From a virus, in the IMG/VR virus record IMGVR_UViG_3300047476_000713, positions 1-25,467 of that record: a stretch of DNA of 25,467 nt; one strand, 5' to 3'. The translations under genes and the position numbers were made by a program. A model generated the notes under the pieces. It was not told the DNA's origin. It did not search any database and worked only from the letters and a program-made list of their open reading frames with translations. Shown here piece by piece: positions 8,197-25,467 of this stretch. The stretch's first letter is position 1. Each line of letters opens with the position of its first letter.

Positions 8197-8537
8197 TTAA
8201 ACATATTGTGGCTGGACCCGGTGTCAGTGTAACCGGGTCTTTTAGTCCTCCGTATATTAGCCCAGGATCTCAGAGTGCTGGAATGGTAAGATACAATACT
8301 AGTACACAAAACGCAGAAGTATACGACGGCAATGCCTGGCTTACTATGAGCTCTAGCCCAAGTGTTTCGTTAAGCAACGACACAATAGAAGTCCTAGAAT
8401 GGGCAAGAAAAAAGATGCAGGAAGAACAAAAGTTGGAACAACTGATGCAACGGCATCCAGGACTTCGTGATACCCATGAAAAGTTTGAAATAATGAAAGC
8501 CTTGTGCAGTAAAGAAGAAGACAATGTCGCAAGATAA
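8193..8537 (+). CDS. Small structural-type phage protein
   Basis: The product is 114 aa, coupled to the clamp gene by an ATGA overlap. Residues 1-55 (HIVAGPGVSVTGSFSPPYISPGSQSAGMVRYNTSTQNAEVYDGNAWLTM) have the Gly/Ser-rich 'GMVRYN..T...EVYDG..W' repeat motif common in phage tail-fibre, head-decoration and virion proteins. Residues 62-110 form a charged helix (IEVLEWARKKMQEEQKLEQLM). Proteins with this two-part design are frequent in T4-like environmental phages, but their role is unknown. It overlaps the DpdA-like gene by 14 nt. Confidence 0.6.
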   Translation: MIKHIVAGPGVSVTGSFSPPYISPGSQSAGMVRYNTSTQNAEVYDGNAWLTMSSSPSVSLSNDTIEVLEWARKKMQEEQKLEQLMQRHPGLRDTHEKFEIMKALCSKEEDNVAR

Positions 8538-10065
8538 TTTAACAGCCAAACAACTAGACTATGCAGTTTTCTTACCCGCTATTAGCGGGTTTTATGCTAC
8601 ATTTATAGGCAAACAAAGAAACGAGCAGTATGTTGATCCAGCAAGATTTCCGCAAGGGCTAACAGACATGGAACAACTCAACTGGCTTAACAGCGGTAAG
8701 GGTTTGTTTCCCTATAAGTGGTCTTTGTACTCAGGCGGCCATGCTAACTTAGATCTCAACAAACAAGACTGGAGTGAAGACATGGTTCGTAATCGCGAAC
8801 CTGGCACCTTTATGTTAGGCGATTCTGGTGGATTCCAGATTGCCAAGGGTTTGTGGGAAGGCGATTGGAAAGCCAACAGCGGTTGTCCTAAGGCACAAAA
8901 GAAACGCGAACAAGTGTTGGCCTGGCTTGATGGTGTTGCCGACTACGGCATGATCCTTGATATTCCGACTTGGGTCATACATGACAAAAAGGCAAGTGCA
9001 GCCTGTCAAATTACTACACTACAAGAAGCTGTAGATGCTACCAAGTTCAATAACGAATACTTTATGAAACATCGCAAAGGGGTAGCCAATGGCGGTGCTC
9101 GTTTCTTAAATGTCTTGCAAGGCGATAACCATACTAGTGCCGAAGAGTGGTATCAGACTATGAAAGTTTACTGCGATCCTAACCAATTCCCAGATACGCA
9201 TTTTGATGGCTGGGCTATGGGTGGACAGAACATGTGCGATGTGCATCTTGTCTTAAAAAGATTGGTAGCGTTGCGTTATGATAACTTGTTGCAAGAAGGC
9301 CGTCACGATTGGATGCACTTTTTGGGTACAAGTAAACTAGAGTGGGCAGTTCTCTTAACTGTCATTCAACGAGCTGTGAGAAAATATGTTAATCCTGCTT
9401 TTACTATTTCCTTTGACTGTGCTAGTCCTTTTCTTGCTACTGCGAACGGCCAGGTCTACCACCACATCGACCTCCCGCACGACGAAAAGTGGTGCTACCG
9501 AATGAGTCCCAGTGTTGACGATAAAAAGTACTCAACAGATACAAGACAATATAGCGATGTAATCGTTAACGATGGATTTGTTAACCACTTTGACGAAAGT
9601 CCAATTAGTCGTATGCTCCAGATCAAAGATATTTGTATCTACAAACCCGGAGACCTGAATAAGATTGGTAAAGAAGGCAAGACTTCGTGGGACAGTTTTA
9701 GTTACGCACTCTTAATGGGTCATAATGTTTGGACACATATTGAAGCAGTACAACGAGCCAACAGAGAGTTTGATGCAGGCTTCCATCCAGCAATGATGCG
9801 CCGCGACGGTGGCGATTATGTTTTGTTCGAAGACATCGTTGAACGAATCTTTGCGGCAAATACCAAGACCGAAGCTGAATCGATAATTGAACAATACAGT
9901 ACTTATTGGATGCAGATTGTAGGCACTCGCGGATTCAAAGGCAAGAAGACCATGAACGCTAACACTATGTTTAACAATCTTTTCGAAGTTGTTGACGGCA
10001 CTGATGAAGATAGTGTAGAATTTAGTGAGGAACGACTAGACGAACTCGAAAAGGAAGTTTCATGA
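8524..10065 (+). CDS. dpdA: DpdA-like transglycosylase (7-deazaguanine insertion into DNA), TGT superfamily
   Basis: The product is 513 aa. TGT-fold motifs are present: L-G-D100-S-G-G-F-Q (substrate-binding Asp and DSGGFQ loop), G229-W-A-M-G-G234 (equivalent to the TGT GLxxGG base-recognition loop), LGTSKLEWAVLL (about 256-272) and SF-D298-C-ASP (nucleophile region). DpdA proteins are TGT relatives that swap guanine in DNA for a 7-deazaguanine. FolE, QueD and QueE in this window can supply that substrate, which favours DNA over tRNA as the target. The canonical tRNA-TGT zinc site CxCx2C...H is not seen. About 150 C-terminal residues extend beyond the barrel motifs. It heads a run of overlapping genes ending in a glycosyltransferase. 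Confidence 0.8.
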   Translation: MSQDNLTAKQLDYAVFLPAISGFYATFIGKQRNEQYVDPARFPQGLTDMEQLNWLNSGKGLFPYKWSLYSGGHANLDLNKQDWSEDMVRNREPGTFMLGDSGGFQIAKGLWEGDWKANSGCPKAQKKREQVLAWLDGVADYGMILDIPTWVIHDKKASAACQITTLQEAVDATKFNNEYFMKHRKGVANGGARFLNVLQGDNHTSAEEWYQTMKVYCDPNQFPDTHFDGWAMGGQNMCDVHLVLKRLVALRYDNLLQEGRHDWMHFLGTSKLEWAVLLTVIQRAVRKYVNPAFTISFDCASPFLATANGQVYHHIDLPHDEKWCYRMSPSVDDKKYSTDTRQYSDVIVNDGFVNHFDESPISRMLQIKDICIYKPGDLNKIGKEGKTSWDSFSYALLMGHNVWTHIEAVQRANREFDAGFHPAMMRRDGGDYVLFEDIVERIFAANTKTEAESIIEQYSTYWMQIVGTRGFKGKKTMNANTMFNNLFEVVDGTDEDSVEFSEERLDELEKEVS

Positions 10066-10890: not shown

Positions 10891-11342
10891 TGGAACAAAG
10901 AAACCAAGCACTTGCTGAACGACGACAGCAAATTAAACATCATGCAAAGCGTATGATTTTTGTAACCTTTCAGAAGGAAGGTATCCACATGTATCCAGCG
11001 GCGGCAACTGATCCTGCACTAAAAACAGGTGACCAGTATGATGTTAGCTTTTTAGGAACTCCACATCGTCACATCTTTCATTTTAATGTGGCGATCGAAG
11101 TATTTCACAACGACAGGGATATTGAGTTTATTCAATTCAAGCGTTGGCTAGAAAATCTCTATGCTGGCGGTACACTCGAATTGAATTACAAGAGTTGTGA
11201 AATGATTAGCGACGATCTCTATGAGCAAATTGCTAGTCGATATCCCGATCGTGACATCGAAATCACTGTCAGCGAAGACGGAGAAAACGGTGCTACAATT
11301 TATTACAACACCACAAGACCTTATCAACAACTAGCCATTTAA
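10890..11342 (+). CDS. Conserved-type phage protein of unknown function in the dpdA unit
   Basis: The product is 150 aa from a TAATG overlap. The central block RHIFHFNVAIEVFHNDRDIEFIQFKRWLENLY (about 60-91), followed by TLELNYKSCEMISDDLYEQIASRYPDR, looks like a conserved alpha/beta domain. SEDGENGATI lies near the C-terminus. I recall similar sequences in T4-like environmental phages but know no function. It is three genes downstream of dpdA in a string of overlapping genes, and is followed after 15 nt by the next gene. Confidence 0.6.
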   Translation: MEQRNQALAERRQQIKHHAKRMIFVTFQKEGIHMYPAAATDPALKTGDQYDVSFLGTPHRHIFHFNVAIEVFHNDRDIEFIQFKRWLENLYAGGTLELNYKSCEMISDDLYEQIASRYPDRDIEITVSEDGENGATIYYNTTRPYQQLAI

Positions 11343-11357
11343 AAGGAAGAATTAAAC

Positions 11358-11606
11358 ATGGCCAAAGATTTTAAAAAGTATCTCGTTATGAAGCCCGAAG
11401 TTACTCGTATCTTCGACGAGCTAGACCGTTACCGTCAATTTTGTGTGGATTACGGTTTCCCTTTTAACGAGGCACATCTGGGTAACGACTACAGTCCCTA
11501 TGGCGACTATAAGCGTTGGCAAAACGGAAAGAATCCTCGAGACAACTGGGGGTGGATGATCCGTCAAGGACACAAATATTACACAGGCAACAAACACAAT
11601 GCGTAA
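11358..11606 (+). CDS. Small hypothetical protein
   Basis: The product is 82 aa, preceded by AAAAGGAAG about 9 nt before the ATG. It is basic and aromatic-rich (YRQFCVDYGFPFNEAHLGNDYSPYGDYKRWQNGK, residues about 25-58, then WGWMIRQGHKYY). It has no membrane segment and no named motif. Its last 8 nt overlap the glycosyltransferase start, so the two are probably co-translated. Function unknown. Confidence 0.6.
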   Translation: MAKDFKKYLVMKPEVTRIFDELDRYRQFCVDYGFPFNEAHLGNDYSPYGDYKRWQNGKNPRDNWGWMIRQGHKYYTGNKHNA

Positions 11607-12804
11607 ACTATTTTATATGGGCCTTGAGCCCTATAAAGCCCGCTATACACTACAATTACAAGAGTGGAATCGTGCTGTCTTTGAGCGCAGAGGTATCAAC
11701 TATGTAATTGTACCAGGAGAGACACTAAGTAACGATCAAGCCATTGTTACAGGACAAGTACTAGATGCACACGGTCGTACTTACTTTGGCATGAGCCAAC
11801 TTATGAATCTCGTGCGTATAATGAAAGCAGGAGAGTGCACCAATGAAGATATTGTCTATTTTGAAGACATGTTCCAACCGGGCATCGAGAGCTTACCTTA
11901 TATCATTAATCAAGTACCTGCCTCTATGCGCCCTCGCATTTTTGTTCGGTGTCTTGCTCAAAGCATTGACCCTGACGATTTTGTTCATGTATGGGGTATG
12001 TCAAAGTGGATGGGTCTCTATGAAAAGATGGTGGACTCGTTCGTAGACGGCGTACTAGCTAGCAATGAAGAAATGGTCATGCACATGAAGATTGCAGGCT
12101 GGGAAGCCCCAATCTATAATATCAGCGGCTTGGCATTTGGCAAAGACGAAGTCCAAGGTCGCGTTGAAAATCAAATCAAACCTTTTAAAGAGCGAGCATA
12201 TCGTGTAGGCTTTGCGGCTCGTTGGGATCAAGAAAAGCAACCTGAGTTTTTCATGGACCTGATTGAAGCATACAATACACTACGCGACAATACCAAACGA
12301 ATCTACGAAATTGAACTTCCCAAAGTTGAGTTTGCAGTATTCAGCGGTAGCAAGCTCAAAAGTAACAACGACAGTTACATGCAACGCACTAGAGACATGC
12401 AAGCTCGAGGACTGCTAACCGTGCACGAGGATCTAGAAAAAAATGAGTATTATCATCTTCTTAATGATACTAGGGTATTGTTCAATTGCGCTCTTCAAGA
12501 CTGGGTATCAAATACCGTTTCGGAAGCTGATGCTCTTGGTTGCAATGTACTATATCCTGCTTATCGTAGCTTCCCTGAGACTTTCGCCAATGATGCAGAG
12601 CGTTTATATGTACCTTGGAGTATAAACGATGCCATTGATAAACTAATTGCTTTGCTTAAAGAGCCACATAAGAACATGGGTAAGATCAGTGATTGGACCG
12701 ACGGCACAATTGATCGTATTTGTGACATTCTTGAAGGCAAAGGCGAGCAATGGCGGCGTATGAGTGTTGACTATAGAAAACACACAGCACCTGCTAAATA
12801 TTAA
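11599..12804 (+). CDS. Glycosyltransferase, GT-B fold (group 1 type)
   Basis: The product is 401 aa. The C-terminal half has the GT-B nucleotide-sugar domain: RVGFAARWDQEKQPEFFMDLI (about 197-217, the strand-helix after the interdomain linker) and VSNTVSE309ADALGCNVLYP, where the Glu corresponds to the donor-binding acidic residue of group 1 transferases. The N-terminal half supplies an acceptor domain (YMGLEPYKARYTLQLQEWNRAVFERRGI). Acceptor and donor cannot be read from sequence. Being the last large member of the overlapping dpdA run, it might glycosylate a modified base. Surface-polysaccharide or virion glycosylation are alternatives. A GalE homologue lies just downstream and could supply UDP-galactose. 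Confidence 0.75.
   Translation: MRKLFYMGLEPYKARYTLQLQEWNRAVFERRGINYVIVPGETLSNDQAIVTGQVLDAHGRTYFGMSQLMNLVRIMKAGECTNEDIVYFEDMFQPGIESLPYIINQVPASMRPRIFVRCLAQSIDPDDFVHVWGMSKWMGLYEKMVDSFVDGVLASNEEMVMHMKIAGWEAPIYNISGLAFGKDEVQGRVENQIKPFKERAYRVGFAARWDQEKQPEFFMDLIEAYNTLRDNTKRIYEIELPKVEFAVFSGSKLKSNNDSYMQRTRDMQARGLLTVHEDLEKNEYYHLLNDTRVLFNCALQDWVSNTVSEADALGCNVLYPAYRSFPETFANDAERLYVPWSINDAIDKLIALLKEPHKNMGKISDWTDGTIDRICDILEGKGEQWRRMSVDYRKHTAPAKY
12794..12800 (+). promoter_or_regulatory. TAAATA late-promoter-like motif
   Basis: CTAAATA overlaps the last codons of the glycosyltransferase, 19 nt before the ATG of the exported His-rich protein. It resembles T4-type late promoters, but its coding overlap lowers confidence. 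Confidence 0.25.
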
Positions 12805-12819
12805 TAAAGGATCGGTACC

Positions 12820-13137
12820 ATGTTGAAAAGATTATATCTCATTATAGGATTTGTGTTTTTAGCAATGGTACTGCCTGCACAGGCCCAACATCGAGGTCAT
12901 CATAGACATCACCACCATCATGGTGGTCATCACAATTGGGTAGTCCCTGCAATTATTAGTGGTGCTATTGTTTATGGAATGACTAGACCTAGTACATCCC
13001 CGCCGCCTGTTGTTTACCAAAGCAATCCTCCAATTGTTCTACAGCCAGGACAGCAGATAGTCTGTGCCAGGCCGCAACAGGTTTTTAACTCTATTACTGG
13101 GATGTACGAAATACGGCAAGAGTGTTGGGTACAATAA
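12820..13137 (+). CDS. Exported His-rich protein with signal peptide
   Basis: The product is 105 aa. It has a classical Sec signal: MLKR, a hydrophobic core (LYLIIGFVFLAMVL) and a P-A-Q-A cleavage site at about residues 20-23. A histidine-rich tract follows (about 12 His in residues 24-39). A short hydrophobic Gly-containing segment comes next (WVVPAIISGAIVYGM), then a Pro-rich stretch and a C-terminal region with two Cys. It probably acts in the periplasm or envelope and could bind Ni, Zn or Cu. It resembles bacterial exported hypotheticals more than phage morphogenesis proteins, so host acquisition is possible. AAAGGA precedes the start, and a strong terminator lies directly downstream. Confidence 0.7.
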   Translation: MLKRLYLIIGFVFLAMVLPAQAQHRGHHRHHHHHGGHHNWVVPAIISGAIVYGMTRPSTSPPPVVYQSNPPIVLQPGQQIVCARPQQVFNSITGMYEIRQECWVQ

Positions 13138-13141
13138 TATG

Positions 13142-13165
13142 AGCAACCGCAAGGTTGCTTTTTTT
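13142..13165 (+). terminator. Rho-independent terminator
   Basis: AGCAACC (13142-13148), loop GCAA and GGTTGCT (13153-13159) form a perfect 7-bp stem with a GNRA loop. It is followed by a run of T to 13165, ending the dpdA-to-His-rich-protein unit. Confidence 0.85.
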
Positions 13166-13183
13166 ATTCCAATCTGTTAAACT
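13155..13183 (+). promoter_or_regulatory. Sigma70-type promoter of galE, predicted leaderless
   Basis: TTGCTT (13155-13160) and TAAACT (13178-13183) have a 17-bp spacer. The -35 overlaps the terminator stem. The -10 ends 6 nt before the galE ATG, so transcription would start at the A of the ATG. Confidence 0.4.
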
Positions 13184-13189
13184 AATTAG

Positions 13190-14170
13190 ATGAAAAAACG
13201 AGTAATTATTACTGGAGCCATGGGCTTCATTGGTAGCCACACCGCCAAAGTTTTTAAAGAAGCAGGGTACAATGTTATTGGTATAGATCACAAAGCAACT
13301 ATACCCGAGGCCGCACATTTTTTGGATCAATGGCTCCAAGATGATTTTGCAGATATGGCTGCTGCCGCGGCAAGAATTAATCAAGTTGATGCCATAATTC
13401 ATTGTGCGGGTACTAGCCTTGTTGGTCCTAGTATTGCTGATCCTTATACTTACTACTGGAATAATGCCAGCAAGACCAATCAAATGTTGGAGGGGCTACG
13501 CCAACAAAACTGGCCCTGTAAGATTGTTTTTAGTAGCAGTGCCGCAACCTACGGCGTTCCTGATTCTAATCGACAGTTGATAGAAACTGATCTACAAAAT
13601 CCCATTAGCCCTTATGGTCAAAGCAAACTGTTCTGCGAACGCATTATACAGGACCATTGCCGTGCACACGGATTTAAAGGTATTGCTTTGAGATACTTTA
13701 ATGCCTGTGGTTGCGATGCAGACGGAAAACTTGGGCATGTTGTTGAAGATACACACATGATACCTAGAGTGCTCAGTGCATACCGTCGTGGTGAAATGTT
13801 TACCCTTTACGGCAACGATTACAATACACCAGATGGTTCGTGCATTCGTGATTACCTACATGTAACCGATATTGCACTAGCACACCTTGAATCTGTTTGC
13901 CTGGCTGAGTCCATGGAGGCAAACGAATTCAGAGCCTACAACTTGGGTACCGGACAAGGTAAAAGCAATAAAGAAATTATCTGGGCCTGCAATTGGGCAG
14001 TAAGAGAAAAGATTAACTTTACCGTTGGCCCAAGACGCATCGGTGATCCAGATTACTTAGTTGCCAACAGCGACCTATTTCAACAAGATACTAGCTGGCA
14101 CCCTATTAATAGCGATATCGAAAACATTGTTGCTACCGCTTGGGCCTGGGAGCGTAAACACGGGTCTTAA
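13190..14170 (+). CDS. galE: UDP-glucose 4-epimerase-like SDR enzyme
   Basis: The product is 326 aa (typical GalE about 338), an extended short-chain dehydrogenase. The NAD-binding loop is G9-A-M-G-F-I-G15. The catalytic set is S117 region (SSSAATYG, 115-122), Y142 and K146 (YGQSK). GalE family markers are RYFNACG and TPDGSCIRDYLHVTDIA. It would interconvert UDP-glucose and UDP-galactose (or the GlcNAc/GalNAc pair) in the cytoplasm. It could feed the glycosyltransferase upstream, although a terminator separates the two. No Shine-Dalgarno site lies before the ATG, and the start sits 6 nt after a -10 box, predicting a leaderless message. Confidence 0.85.
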   Translation: MKKRVIITGAMGFIGSHTAKVFKEAGYNVIGIDHKATIPEAAHFLDQWLQDDFADMAAAAARINQVDAIIHCAGTSLVGPSIADPYTYYWNNASKTNQMLEGLRQQNWPCKIVFSSSAATYGVPDSNRQLIETDLQNPISPYGQSKLFCERIIQDHCRAHGFKGIALRYFNACGCDADGKLGHVVEDTHMIPRVLSAYRRGEMFTLYGNDYNTPDGSCIRDYLHVTDIALAHLESVCLAESMEANEFRAYNLGTGQGKSNKEIIWACNWAVREKINFTVGPRRIGDPDYLVANSDLFQQDTSWHPINSDIENIVATAWAWERKHGS

Positions 14171-14174
14171 TACC

Positions 14175-14203
14175 TTGACTTTACAATCTAAATACATTAC
14201 AAT
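14175..14203 (+). promoter_or_regulatory. Sigma70-type promoter of folE
   Basis: TTGACT (14175-14180) and TACAAT (14198-14203) have a 17-bp spacer. CTAAATA (14188-14194) lies within the spacer, as at the clamp promoter. Confidence 0.6.
14188..14194 (+). promoter_or_regulatory. TAAATA late-promoter-like motif
   Basis: CTAAATA, T4-late-like, nested in the sigma70 promoter spacer upstream of folE. Confidence 0.3.
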
Positions 14204-14209
14204 TTAAAA

Positions 14210-14229
14210 TATAGTCATCCACGACTATA
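14210..14229 (+). promoter_or_regulatory. Hairpin in the folE leader
   Basis: TATAGTC (14210-14216) and GACTATA (14223-14229) form a perfect 7-bp stem with a 6-nt loop, just upstream of the CGGAG ribosome site. It may stabilise the mRNA or tune initiation. No known riboswitch consensus is seen. Confidence 0.4.
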
Positions 14230-14246
14230 ACTCGGAGAAAACTAAA

Positions 14247-14993
14247 ATGACAAATAAAAAAGAAACAGGATTAGACGCCATGGCCGGCGACGGCGGTTAC
14301 AAAGAAGCATATCTTGCAGACATACTTCGTACAAAAATGAAACGCGACGGAAAAAGGTTTTGGGCCGGAGACAACATCAGCGATTATGTCAACGAAGATA
14401 TGAAAGATATCTTGATTGTTGAGGCCACAGAAGCATTTGAAAAAGTGCTAGACACACTACTCATTGATCGAGAAACTGACCCTAACAGTAAAGGCACTGC
14501 CCGGCGTTTGGCTAAAATGTACTTTAACGAAATCATGGCAGGGCGCTATGAAACACCGCCCGACTGCACAGCATTCCCTAATGACAGCGAAGACCGCTAC
14601 GAAGGTATGTTGGTTGTACGCAGTGAACTACGCAGTATGTGTAGTCATCACCATCAACCTGTTAGTGGTGTTGCCTATATTGGCATCATTGCCGCAGAAA
14701 AACTTATTGGTTTAAGTAAATACACAAGGATAGCCCAATGGTGTGCCCGTCGTGGAACACTACAGGAAGAGCTTTGTGTAGTAATCGCTGATGCAATTAT
14801 GAAGGCCACTGGGTCCAAGGATGTTGGCGTGTATATCCAAGCCACACACGGTTGTTGCGAAAATCGAGGCATTATGGCTCACAGCAGTCTTACACAAACC
14901 ACTGTACTACACGGTGCATTCAAAACCGACCCAAGTGTTAAAAAGGAGTTTATGGATAATATTAAACTTCAGCAAGATTGGGCACCACGATAA
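14247..14993 (+). CDS. folE: GTP cyclohydrolase I
   Basis: The product is 248 aa. It opens the imidazole ring of GTP to give 7,8-dihydroneopterin triphosphate, the first step to both folate and 7-deazaguanines. Zinc ligands are visible as C132-S-H-H135 and C203 in H201-G-C-C. Family motifs LIGLSKYTRIAQWCARR (about 153-169), LQEELCVVIADAI and CCENRGI follow in the right order. This is the canonical type IA enzyme with an extra N-terminal segment of about 40 residues. It has its own promoter, a leader hairpin and a CGGAG site. With QueD and QueE downstream, the likely purpose is 7-deazaguanine synthesis for DpdA rather than folate. Confidence 0.92.
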   Translation: MTNKKETGLDAMAGDGGYKEAYLADILRTKMKRDGKRFWAGDNISDYVNEDMKDILIVEATEAFEKVLDTLLIDRETDPNSKGTARRLAKMYFNEIMAGRYETPPDCTAFPNDSEDRYEGMLVVRSELRSMCSHHHQPVSGVAYIGIIAAEKLIGLSKYTRIAQWCARRGTLQEELCVVIADAIMKATGSKDVGVYIQATHGCCENRGIMAHSSLTQTTVLHGAFKTDPSVKKEFMDNIKLQQDWAPR

Positions 14994-18128: not shown

Positions 18129-18683
18129 ATGGCAAACTCATCAACACAAGAACTAATCCGTCACCTGGAACAAAATCTTCCTTATCGCGGGCCCGTCACT
18201 TACAAATATACCAGCACTAAAGAATACCACGATGCATTTCCGTGTGCATATCGTCAATGGCGTGCTGACAGTCACTGTAACTTAATTCACGGTTACAGTT
18301 TTTCAATGAAGTTTTACTTTGGCACCAACGACTTAGATGTTCGCAATTGGGCCGCTGACTATGGTGGACTCAAAGAACTTAAAAAGGTCTTAGAAGACCA
18401 GTTTGACCATACACTTATTGTAGCACAAGACGATCCAGAAATGGCAACATTCAAACTGTTACAAGAAAAGAACATGGCCAAAATTGTTGTCCTACCTAAG
18501 TTAGGTTGCGAAGGACTTAGCGATATGCTCTACAAGTATGTCAATGGTGTTTACATTCCTGAAATGTGGGGACCAGGAGAAGCCGCTAGACTGTGGTGTT
18601 ATCGTGTAGAAGTGCGTGAAACACAGGCTAACATGGCTTTCCGTGAAGGACATCGTGAATGGAATGAGGATCTGTTTGCATGA
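18129..18683 (+). CDS. queD: 6-carboxytetrahydropterin synthase-like protein
   Basis: The product is 184 aa. It would convert dihydroneopterin triphosphate to 6-carboxy-tetrahydropterin, the second step to CDG. Visible family elements are C50 after H49 (catalytic Cys), H54-G-Y56 at the HGH position, W74-A-A-D-Y-G-G with a long helix, F92-D93-H94-T and V-E161-V-R-E164-T. It belongs to a divergent branch. The first canonical zinc His (AAH) is replaced by A-Y-R, and the second HGH His is Tyr, so metal binding must differ or H49 substitutes. Start has AAAGGAG 8 nt upstream. Its stop overlaps the cupin gene (ATGA). Confidence 0.8.
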   Translation: MANSSTQELIRHLEQNLPYRGPVTYKYTSTKEYHDAFPCAYRQWRADSHCNLIHGYSFSMKFYFGTNDLDVRNWAADYGGLKELKKVLEDQFDHTLIVAQDDPEMATFKLLQEKNMAKIVVLPKLGCEGLSDMLYKYVNGVYIPEMWGPGEAARLWCYRVEVRETQANMAFREGHREWNEDLFA

Positions 18684-19049: not shown

Positions 19050-19334
19050 ATGAATAACAAAGAAAACGAAATCCTTTTGATTACACAAGAGGAGTGTGCA
19101 GAAGTAACGCAGGCTATCAGCAAGTGTTATAGATTCGGTCTAGATAATTACAAGCCGGGCAAGCCCAAGACTAATAGACAGCATTTGTCTGAGGAACTAG
19201 GCGACCTATTAGCAATGATTGAACTGTGTCACGACCACGGTCTAGTAGATGTTCAAGATGTAATGACTGCTAAAGATGCTAAACTAGAAAAGTTGCGTCA
19301 GTGGTCTAATATTTTCAAGGTAGACAATGAGTAA
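19050..19334 (+). CDS. MazG-like nucleotide pyrophosphohydrolase
   Basis: The product is 94 aa, a single all-alpha NTP-PPase domain. Metal-binding motifs are E14-E15-C-A-E18 on the first helix and E49-L-G-D52 on the next, with the short basic loop NRQHLSE between them. It would hydrolyse an (d)NTP to the monophosphate and pyrophosphate; specificity cannot be read. Phage MazG proteins are usually linked to nucleotide pools or (p)ppGpp. Here its place before queE makes control of guanine nucleotides or a modified precursor conceivable. The predicted message is leaderless. Confidence 0.75.
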   Translation: MNNKENEILLITQEECAEVTQAISKCYRFGLDNYKPGKPKTNRQHLSEELGDLLAMIELCHDHGLVDVQDVMTAKDAKLEKLRQWSNIFKVDNE

Positions 19335-20181
19335 AATTAAAATCGCAGAACTGTTTTACAGTATCCAAGGAGAGGGCCGCTACATGGGTGTGCCCTCTGT
19401 TTTCTTACGCACATTTGGTTGCAACTTTACCTGCTCGGGTTTTGGTATGCCTAGAGGTGAGAAGACCAAAGAACTCAATGACATTGTTAATCGAGTGCAC
19501 TATTTTAAAGAGTACAAGGATCTACCCTTGGTTAGTACAGGTTGCGACAGCTATGCTAGTTGGCATCCTTCATTTAAAGACTTTAGCCCACTACTGACAG
19601 TAGATGCTATTGTAGAGCGTACAATGCAGATATTGCCACACAATGAATGGCAAGATGAACACTTGGTTATCACCGGCGGCGAACCATTGTTAGGTTGGCA
19701 ACGCAGTTATCCCGAACTGCTGAATCATCCTAGTATGCAAAATCTCAAAGAACTTACCTTTGAAACCAATGGTACTCAAATGCTTGGCAATGAGTTTAAA
19801 ACTTATCTAGGGCAATGGCAGAATCAAGGCATCTCTCTAGATCGCGAACTTACTTTTAGTGTAAGTCCTAAATTGCCTTGCAGTGGTGAAGCATGGGAAG
19901 ATGCTATTGTACCCAGTGTTGTAGTTCAGTATCAATCAGTGGGCTATACCTATCTTAAATTTGTTATTGCCACAGAAGAAGATCTAGCAGATGCAGAAAG
20001 GGCTGTCAATGAATATCGTTCAGCGGGCTTTACAGGTCCTGTGTATCTTATGCCTGTCGGTGGTGTTGAGTGCGTGTATTCCCTTAACAATCGTGCAGTG
20101 GCAGAAATGGCAATGCGAAAAGGATGGCGGTACAGTGATCGACTACAAGTGCCACTATTCAAGAACGAATGGGGCACATGA
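19327..20181 (+). CDS. queE: 7-carboxy-7-deazaguanine synthase-like radical SAM protein
   Basis: The product is 284 aa. It would catalyse ring contraction of 6-carboxy-tetrahydropterin to 7-carboxy-7-deazaguanine. Family marks are FYSIQGEGRYMGVPSVFLRTFGC (about 10-32), G117-G-E-P120 (SAM binding) and ETNGT. The cluster motif is unusual: C32-x3-C36 is followed by C73 in GCDSYASW after 36 residues, instead of the usual Cx3Cx2C. The residues after C73 match the normal C-D-T/S-x-x-S-W. The insert (GFGMPRGE...DLPLVSTG) is typical of a phage-rich QueE branch I recall. Start overlaps mazG by 8 nt with AAGG upstream. Confidence 0.85.
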   Translation: MSKIKIAELFYSIQGEGRYMGVPSVFLRTFGCNFTCSGFGMPRGEKTKELNDIVNRVHYFKEYKDLPLVSTGCDSYASWHPSFKDFSPLLTVDAIVERTMQILPHNEWQDEHLVITGGEPLLGWQRSYPELLNHPSMQNLKELTFETNGTQMLGNEFKTYLGQWQNQGISLDRELTFSVSPKLPCSGEAWEDAIVPSVVVQYQSVGYTYLKFVIATEEDLADAERAVNEYRSAGFTGPVYLMPVGGVECVYSLNNRAVAEMAMRKGWRYSDRLQVPLFKNEWGT

Positions 20182-24436: not shown

Positions 24437-24712
24437 ATGTCTGATATGCTATCACCAAAACTACCCGAAGTTAAATTCAACAAAAACGGTTATGAAATCC
24501 GTACAGATATCCTGGCCATGGCCAAGGATCTAGTTGCTCAAGATTTTCAAGTCAAGTTTGCCGGTTGGGAAATGACTGCCGAGCGCGACCCAAAGACTAA
24601 CCAAATCGTCAGCAAGGTCAACATGCCTGAGTTTCCTGGCCTCGACAAGGTCCTAGAAACTGCTGAAAAAATGTATGCTTTTGTTAACGCAGGAGCAAAC
24701 AGCAAAAAGTAA
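24437..24712 (+). CDS. Conserved-type small phage protein
   Basis: The product is 91 aa from the ATG preceded by AAGGAG 10 nt upstream; the in-frame ATG at 24347 overlaps the previous gene and is unlikely. The pattern KLPEVKFNKNGYEIRTDILAMAKDLVAQDFQVKFAGWEMTAERDPKTNQIVSKVNMPEFPGLDKVLETAEKMYAFVN is reminiscent of small proteins found in T4-like phages, function unknown. Its stop TAA lies inside a palindrome (24706-24729) and is followed by a terminator. Confidence 0.6.
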   Translation: MSDMLSPKLPEVKFNKNGYEIRTDILAMAKDLVAQDFQVKFAGWEMTAERDPKTNQIVSKVNMPEFPGLDKVLETAEKMYAFVNAGANSKK

Positions 24713-24729
24713 TACTCAAGTATTACTTT
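24706..24729 (+). repeat. Perfect palindrome spanning the stop codon
   Basis: AAAGTAATACT (24706-24716), spacer CA, AGTATTACTTT (24719-24729): an exact 11-bp inverted repeat that contains the stop of the 24437 gene. An imperfect relative of the GTAATACTCAAGT element follows the next gene's stop. Confidence 0.7.
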
Positions 24730-24734
24730 ACCAC

Positions 24735-24758
24735 AAAGGGCCTCTAGGGCCCTTTTTT
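24735..24758 (+). terminator. Rho-independent terminator
   Basis: AAAGGGCC (24735-24742), loop TCTAG and GGCCCTTT (24748-24755) form an 8-bp stem followed by T to 24758, closing the 24437 gene. Confidence 0.8.
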
Positions 24759-24788
24759 GTTGTATAAAAACAACAAAAACCCTAGAGG
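24741..24788 (+). promoter_or_regulatory. Alternative nested stem-loop after the terminator
   Basis: CCTCTAGGG (24741-24749) is an exact complement of CCCTAGAGG (24780-24788). Inside, TTTTTGTTGT pairs with ACAACAAAAA around a short loop. This fold uses bases of the terminator stem, so the two structures are mutually exclusive and could act as an anti-terminator or a bidirectional element. Confidence 0.45.
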
Positions 24789-24817
24789 TTGACGGGTTAT
24801 CCGTTTTTGCATATAAT
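24789..24817 (+). promoter_or_regulatory. Near-consensus sigma70 promoter (cassette copy 1)
   Basis: TTGACG (24789-24794), 17-bp spacer, TATAAT (24812-24817). It shares GGTTGACGGGTTATCC with the copy 500 bp downstream. Confidence 0.8.
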
Positions 24818-24848
24818 TATGGCATGTTAAACGCAAACGGAGTTGCAA

Positions 24849-25241
24849 ATGAAAAATTGGACTGACAAAGTTATTAACTGGCATCAACTGCCCGGCGTCG
24901 AAGTTCAGCGTCTGATTGCTACTTGGGGTAAGAGCCCTGCAGAAATTGCCAAGTACGACAAAAAGCACGGCTTCAAGAACGAGCCTGCGGTGGTTCCTCA
25001 TGTGTCTAACACCAAGAACCCTGTTGACTTTCCTAAGGCACCTGCTAAAAAGGCACCTGCTAAGAAAGCCGTTGCAAAGGCTCCTACTCGCCAGAAGCAT
25101 ACTGGTGCAGACGGTGAAGTTAAATTTGTCGAGCATCGTAACCTGTTTGTGGGTTTCTATGGCGGCAAGGTTGTTGTCACCAAACGCACTGCCGAAGCCT
25201 GCAAGGAAGTGCTCCGCACTCAGTTTAATCTGGAAGTGTAA
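24849..25241 (+). CDS. Small basic hypothetical protein with Lys/Ala-Pro linker
   Basis: The product is 130 aa from the ATG with GGAG 7 nt upstream; a TTG two codons earlier is not needed. An N-terminal helical part (WTDKVINWHQLPGVEVQRLIATWGKSPAEIAKYDKKHGFK) leads into a histone-H1-like low-complexity linker (FPKAPAKKAPAKKAVAKAPTRQK, about 59-81). A C-terminal beta-rich piece with FVEHRNLFVGFYGGKVVVTKRTAEACKEVL follows. The near-consensus promoter implies strong, host-polymerase-driven early expression. Function unknown; nucleic-acid binding by the linker is conceivable. Confidence 0.65.
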   Translation: MKNWTDKVINWHQLPGVEVQRLIATWGKSPAEIAKYDKKHGFKNEPAVVPHVSNTKNPVDFPKAPAKKAPAKKAVAKAPTRQKHTGADGEVKFVEHRNLFVGFYGGKVVVTKRTAEACKEVLRTQFNLEV

Positions 25242-25250
25242 TACTCAAGT

Positions 25251-25280
25251 GTTACTGTAGTACTTAAGTACTACAGTAAC
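25251..25280 (+). repeat. Perfect 30-bp palindrome
   Basis: GTTACTGTAGTACTT (25251-25265) followed immediately by its exact reverse complement (25266-25280), with no spacer. It lies just after the stop of the 24849 gene and just before the second promoter. It could terminate transcription weakly (no T-run), protect mRNA ends, or serve as a protein-binding site. Confidence 0.75.
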
Positions 25281-25288
25281 CCTAAAGG

Positions 25289-25318
25289 TTGACGGGTTAT
25301 CCACTTTTCGGTTATAAT
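25289..25318 (+). promoter_or_regulatory. Near-consensus sigma70 promoter (cassette copy 2)
   Basis: TTGACG (25289-25294), 18-bp spacer, TATAAT (25313-25318). It is a close copy of the first promoter, including the preceding AACCCTARAGG and following GGTTATCC. Confidence 0.75.
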
Positions 25319-25350
25319 AGATACATAGCGTAACAAAACAGGAGCACTAA

Positions 25351-25467
25351 ATGGAACTCGCAATTGGCACTGAAATTCGTTACACCAGCGGCGCCGGCAC
25401 TCGTTTGGCTATCATTGAAAACATTAAAGTTGGTCCTACTGCCAAGCCTGGCTTTATGAACACTTGG
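25351..25467 (+). CDS. 3'-truncated small protein at the window edge
   Basis: The first 39 codons are visible before the window ends. The gene has AGGAG about 7 nt before the ATG and its own near-consensus promoter. The start reads MELAIGTEIRYTSGAGTRLAIIENIKVG. The pattern suggests a small beta-strand protein, but the family cannot be judged from this fragment. Confidence 0.55.
   Translation, partial: MELAIGTEIRYTSGAGTRLAIIENIKVGPTAKPGFMNTW

Follow-up and report, generated by a model that had tools for sequence, protein, structure and literature searches.

Candidate PeSL-like cassettes pairing a stop-codon hairpin with a putative promoter between small genes of uncultured jumbo phages

Promoter early stem loops (PeSLs) are reportedly found in T4-like myoviruses, as Arbiol et al. 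in 2010 and Comeau et al. in 2014 are said to have described. A paper citing that work describes PeSLs as elements that mediate gene shuffling among T4-like phages, with a high density where shuffling is intense (PMC4503421). In the haloarchaeal tailed virus HGTV-1, most ORFs of one region are preceded by a promoter-like motif and an inverted repeat, and the authors of that report liken these motifs to PeSLs (PMC3950731).

Here we compare with these systems two intergenic cassettes in a virus fragment from IMG/VR. The window is the entire record of 25,467 bp; because the record stops at 25467, recurrence of the cassette past that point was assessed in relatives. The family B DNA polymerase of the window is of the jumbo/T4-superfamily kind (phrog_262 match), its best matches being Sinorhizobium phage Phosso (52%) and Agrobacterium phage Atu_ph07 (46%), followed by Rak2-like phages. 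Relatives occur in viral contigs of up to 353 kb. Judged by these matches, the carriers are a large group of uncultured jumbo phages.

Elsewhere in the window are genes for a GTP cyclohydrolase I (14247-14993), a QueD-like PTPS (18129-18683) and a QueE-looking radical-SAM protein (19327-20181), a 7-deazaguanine (preQ0) synthesis set that suggests modified DNA. A 513-aa protein (8524-10065) reads like the transglycosylase of this pathway, with no match in Pfam or PHROGs. A ferritin-like (Dps-type) protein is encoded at 738-1172 (Pfam PF00210, E 5.5e-20).

Anatomy of the two cassettes

The intergenic stretches 24706-24848 and 25238-25350 share an identical order of elements: a stop hairpin, further hairpins, a promoter, a leader with GGAG, and an ATG (Table 1). 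The same order of stop codon, inverted repeats and promoter after two consecutive genes, which the sequence-only reading had pointed out, is thus found at both sites. The two proteins at the cassette site have no match in cultured phages or PHROGs. For the upstream protein, Pfam gives sub-threshold hits only (weak G1RFP); uncultured viral contigs hold at least 597 relatives of this protein. Gene 2 has eight relatives at 56-63% identity, most of them behind other promoter families.

Table 1. Positions of genes, hairpins and putative promoters at the two cassettes of the window
Feature	Position	Strand	Details
Upstream gene	24437..24712	+	91 aa, function unknown; TAA stop inside cassette 1
Cassette 1 stop-codon hairpin	24706..24729	+	10-bp stem, TCAA loop
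Cassette 1 predicted intrinsic terminator, AAAGGGCCTCTAGGGCCCTTTTTT	24735..24758	+	9 pairs, 5 GC, loop 3, T-run
Cassette 1 third hairpin, TTTTTGTTGT/ACAACAAAAA	24754..24779	+	overlaps terminator T-run
Putative promoter 1, AACCC-N4-GGTTGACGGGTTATCC-N9-TATAAT	24778..24817	+	-35 at 24789-24794, -10 at 24812-24817, spacer 17
Gene 2	24849..25241	+	130 aa, function unknown; first gene of the window headed by a promoter of this family
Cassette 2 stop-codon hairpin, GTAATACTCAAGTGTTAC	25238..25255	+	TAA stop 25239-25241
Cassette 2 second hairpin, GTTACTGTAGTAC-TTAA-GTACTACAGTAAC	25251..25280	+	13 bp, overlaps first hairpin
Putative promoter 2, AACCC-N4-GGTTGACGGGTTATCC-N10-TATAAT	25278..25318	+	-35 at 25289-25294, -10 at 25313-25318, spacer 18
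Gene 3 leader, ACATAGCGTAACAAAACAGGAG	25323..25344	+	exact in L191, L212 (twice), L234, L241
Gene 3	25351..25467	+	cut by record end; no kinship to L113 gene at same place

Each cassette opens with GTAATACTCAAGT (at 24709 and 25238), which contains the TAA stop of the preceding gene (24710-24712 and 25239-25241). In cassette 1 this sequence is one half of the hairpin GTAATAC-TCAA-GTATTAC, whose core 18-mer, GTAATACTCAAGTATTAC, occupies 24709-24726; the corresponding arms in cassette 2 are GTAATAC-TCAA-GTGTTAC. The predicted terminator of cassette 1 is kept in L113, the nearest relative found, and the third hairpin is also present there with a different loop. The second hairpin of cassette 2 is without a T-tract, and its L113 counterpart, GTTACTGTGGCA/TGCCACAGTAAC, carries compensating changes. 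Most cassettes of the family are without a canonical terminator.

The RNA folds far more strongly than shuffled sequences (z = -6.4, -5.3 and -3.5, the first of these for 24705-24735), and the proposed inverted repeats are real, with folds of the two intergenic stretches at z = -6.4 and -3.5. No match near the gathering score of any Rfam family and no tRNA was found at the cassettes. An attenuator working through alternative pairing of CCTCTAGGG with CCCTAGAGG was considered; this pairing is strong in the fold of the window but not conserved in L113, and was rejected.

Both cassettes hold a putative host-type (sigma-70) promoter, and these two are the top-scoring sigma-70 matches over the final 10 kb of the window (TTGACG-17/18-TATAAT, 11/12). 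The 16-mer GGTTGACGGGTTATCC, searched with up to three mismatches, occurs twice in the window, both times exactly, against an expectation of 0.13, and two or more sites arose in 2 of 100 shuffles. Around the -35 box, CCCTAGAGG/CCCTAAAGG plus TTGACGGGTTATCC at 24780-24802 and 25280-25302 are identical at 22 of 23 positions and lie 500 bp apart, start to start, just as the sequence-only reading had it; the exact distance is nevertheless incidental, since the corresponding spacing in L113 is 474 bp. Likewise, a conserved element does exist where CCCTARAGG had been proposed, but its true form is AACCC, a variable N4 and GG.

Recurrence of the hairpin and promoter families

Uncultured viral contigs contain at least 120 stretches with the exact 18-mer GTAATACTCAAGTATTAC, mostly at the stop codons of different genes with a promoter downstream, and the flanking genes differ among sites. 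The broader family GTANTACT-NN-AGTANTAC accounts for 235 strand-counts, or about 118 places, in the loci that we fetched; at 103 of these places an open frame of 40 or more codons ends in an in-frame stop, and at 95 a TTGAC...TATAAT-like promoter lies within 152 nt downstream. Many loci had been fetched by the 18-mer itself, which leaves a smaller unbiased part: among loci fetched otherwise, 20 strand-counts include 10 with the stop, 10 with the promoter and 9 with both. For comparison, 2.4 Mb of first-order Markov simulation yields no match to the family pattern. The 18-mer is absent from five cultured jumbo relatives (GAP32, PA5oct, Atu_ph07, Phosso and Vibrio 2.275.O). Covariation of the stop hairpin was rejected, mismatched variants being at least as frequent as compensated ones, since the TAA sits in the left arm.

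Exact matches to GGTTGACGGGTTATCC occur in 25 stretches of viral contigs. A -10 box lies at the right distance in 21 of the 24 distinct sites with enough context, and the three matches without one (L102, L110 and L115) were taken as chance. AACCC occupies -9 to -5 in 18 of these 21 promoters, even though the search did not require it, and the next four bases are variable. In 7 of the 21, AACCC is overlapped by a TAA or TGA that terminates an ORF of at least 40 codons. Sites resembling AACCC-N4-GGTTGACGGGTTATCC (up to three mismatches) were found in 15 of 15 contigs, with one to four per contig versus none for a reversed-pattern control; as these contigs had been chosen by the 16-mer core, only the additional copies and the control are informative. 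The suggestion that the cassette may continue downstream is borne out in relatives, which have one to four copies of this motif per contig and as many as 18 promoter-led genes within some 12 kb. The exact 21-base motif has no match in a genome collection of 84,980 species, and host or prophage copies of it were thus rejected for that collection.

Sigma-70-type promoters lead many small genes in the relatives, up to 15-18 per locus (L097, L112 and L101), and promoter-led genes have a median length of 92 aa. Counts of TTGAC-N17-19-TATAAT in large contigs far exceed those of the reversed-pattern control (39 versus 0, 40 versus 1 and 48 versus 4), and consensus promoters number 0-16 in each of five cultured jumbo phages. 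Other large contigs carry promoter families of their own, namely TTGACCAATAATTCCCAATTTGCTATAAT (G002 and G003), TTGACAATAAATCCG... (G008) and TTGACAAGTTGGTAAAACCTTGCTATAAT (G005). Spacer identity in G002, G003, G008 and L087 is 0.47-0.64 within a genome versus 0.32-0.35 between genomes; spacer families are weak in G001, G005 and G007, where within-genome identity is only slightly above that between genomes. Comparison across these contigs thus establishes the anatomy of the cassette, its recurrence and its lineage-specific promoter families at the level of sequence.

Some spacers between the -35 and -10 boxes contain inverted repeats of differing sequence (L097, L103, L112, L133, L137, L168 and L272). 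Spacer stems of at least 5 bp occur in 61 of 430 promoters, versus 41.6 (sd 4.3) after spacer halves were shuffled within genomes. At about 3900-4700 of L164 (minus strand, contig G001), consecutive promoters have the -35 box and spacer between changing but complementary arms, such as AGCGCAC...GTGCGCT and AGCACACAC...GTGTGTGCT, so that paired changes surround the promoter.

Gene exchange and competing explanations

L113 shares with the window the upstream gene and both cassettes, as well as gene 2, which is 74% identical between them. Each cassette is closer to its own L113 counterpart than to the other cassette of the window, and both must therefore predate the split between the two. The earlier description of the cassettes as duplicated accordingly fails if a recent event is meant, and recent tandem duplication was rejected. 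Beyond cassette 2 the two sequences part: gene 3 of L113 is unrelated to gene 3 of the window, and the alignment breaks just after TATAATA. The L113 gene has homologues in many more of the fetched loci; nearly all stand behind a sigma-70-like promoter of the kind typical of their own locus, and at least four promoter families are represented. Furthermore, the leader of the window's gene 3 differs from that of L113 at the same site, and its exact copies in other loci (Table 1) come after different promoter families. This leader match is expected of a junction at the -10 box, but convergence may also explain it, because leader sequences throughout the clade follow a loose consensus.

In seven further loci (L006, L008, L019, L033, L036, L075 and L077), the upstream gene is followed by a terminator, a TTGAC promoter and another gene. 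Among homologous pairs at 30-90% identity, the downstream neighbour is conserved for 6-13% of promoter-led genes versus 19-21% of others, a contrast that is supporting rather than decisive given crude gene calls and fragmentary contigs. Unrelated genes thus stand behind the same cassette, and the same gene behind different cassettes. Because homologous genes carry the promoter of the recipient lineage, what these comparisons show is genes taking one another's places behind resident cassettes. Similar flanks by themselves fit either recombination or selection that repeatedly favored the same promoter, and the homology between cassette copies is short.

We favor, with a probability of roughly 0.75, a PeSL-like composite regulatory cassette that insulates small accessory genes and serves as a joint for their exchange. 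The stop codon of the upstream gene sits in a stem-loop, and the hairpins, together with the predicted intrinsic terminator in cassette 1, would end the transcript that arrives from upstream. Next comes a putative near-consensus sigma-70 promoter, extended in a lineage-specific way (AACCC-N4-GG upstream and GGGTTATCC in the spacer), from which the following gene would be transcribed on its own. Since copies of the cassette stand between unrelated genes, they could supply the short homology at which genes get exchanged, and accessory genes could be swapped while each is still expressed independently by host RNA polymerase. We infer the promoter and terminator activities, the early timing and homologous recombination as the mechanism from this arrangement; by analogy with T4 and PeSLs, expression from the cassette promoters early in infection is plausible and probably occurs. 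Sequence comparison supports the proposal of a modular cassette in which every small gene has a strong host-type promoter to itself.

An unlikely alternative is ordinary compact regulation, in which each gene has its own terminator and promoter selected for independent expression, copies are alike through the promoter consensus of a single phage, and the cassettes play no part in gene turnover. Promoter sequence does track lineage and not gene, the conserved parts are short, and intergenic terminators and hairpins are common in phages. However, such regulation would not lead one to expect an 18-mer identical between unrelated genes of diverged lineages, a gene swap in L113 that ends exactly at the -10 box, or lower neighbour conservation for promoter-led genes. 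Somewhat more credible, although still tentative, is the idea that the AACCC...GGGTT dyad around the -35 box is an operator for a DNA-binding protein, of phage or host origin, that would regulate every promoter of the family jointly. The extended conservation would then be regulatory and not recombinational, which is compatible with the PeSL-like cassette. AACCC stands at a fixed distance, across a variable N4, in most of the exact-match promoters (18/21), and ATAACCC...GGGTTAT arms occur 16 times versus 0-2 for permuted arms. Base-pair covariation of the dyad (20 observed versus 13.9 shuffled, maximum 19) is too weak to support an RNA structure, and the lack of clear covariation beyond shuffles is what a protein site should give. 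Against an operator, the same arms form a plain hairpin or terminator with no promoter in the loop in L099, L105, L111 and L164.

It is rather improbable that the stop-codon hairpin and the lineage-specific promoter together make up a dedicated gene-capture platform in which a phage-encoded recombination activity joins incoming genes at the -10 box and leader or at the stop hairpin; were this so, an acquired gene would automatically be closed by the stop hairpin and placed under the promoter of the recipient phage. Less probable still is an integron-like or transposable system, with the hairpins as attC-like or REP-like sites at which a dedicated enzyme moves gene cassettes. One structured site does follow the stop codon of each gene, and the exact 18-mer is scattered among unrelated genes. 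Nonetheless, inspection of the window by eye found neither an attC core (GTTRRRY) layout nor an integrase, no recombinase was recognized on reading the genes beside the cassettes, and the mosaic junction in cassette 2 lies at the promoter -10 box instead of the hairpin.

If the PeSL-like reading is correct, it carries the idea of shuffling joints into a large group of uncultured jumbo phages, and the new element is a stop-codon hairpin that unrelated genes share base for base. The -10 box and stop hairpin offer concrete junctions for testing how phages acquire genes, and the hairpin and promoter families could serve as markers for accessory-gene regions in metagenomic viral contigs.

Comparison with known systems

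The integron comparison is a functional analogy only: a structured element after the stop codon and interchangeable genes resemble attC cassettes, whereas each unit here has its own promoter. GAP32, a cultured Rak2-like Cronobacter phage (NC_019401.1), has near-identical promoter copies within 3.6 kb (11183-14753), with TTGACAAAATGGTTAGAGTACTTTATAAT at 11183 and 11575 and a variant at 14725. It lacks the stop-codon 18-mer and has fewer such promoters; in this cultured jumbo phage, the copies may reflect a comparable arrangement. HGTV-1, as described, resembles the jumbo phages in having a conserved promoter-like motif and inverted repeat before most ORFs of a region, but the promoter there is of the archaeal TATA-box type and the one here is of the bacterial sigma-70 type.

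The closest likeness is to PeSLs, and the cassette may well work like one, the two being likened by description and not by sequence. PeSLs, as described, combine a stem-loop with an early-type host promoter in intergenic gaps, are dense in shuffling regions and are tied to gene shuffling. Here, too, stem-loops lie beside a putative host-type promoter (the terminator of cassette 1, folds at z = -6.4 and -3.5, and the T-tract-free hairpin of cassette 2), many repeats separate small accessory genes (15-18 promoter-led genes per locus), and flanking genes are shuffled, as judged by comparison (the L113 swap, genes behind different cassettes, and neighbour conservation). Unlike PeSLs, the cassettes described here, which uncultured jumbo phages carry, place the stop codon within a sequence-conserved 18-nt hairpin common to diverged lineages and flank the -35 box with AACCC/GGGTT arms; several lineages, moreover, use an extended promoter family peculiar to them.
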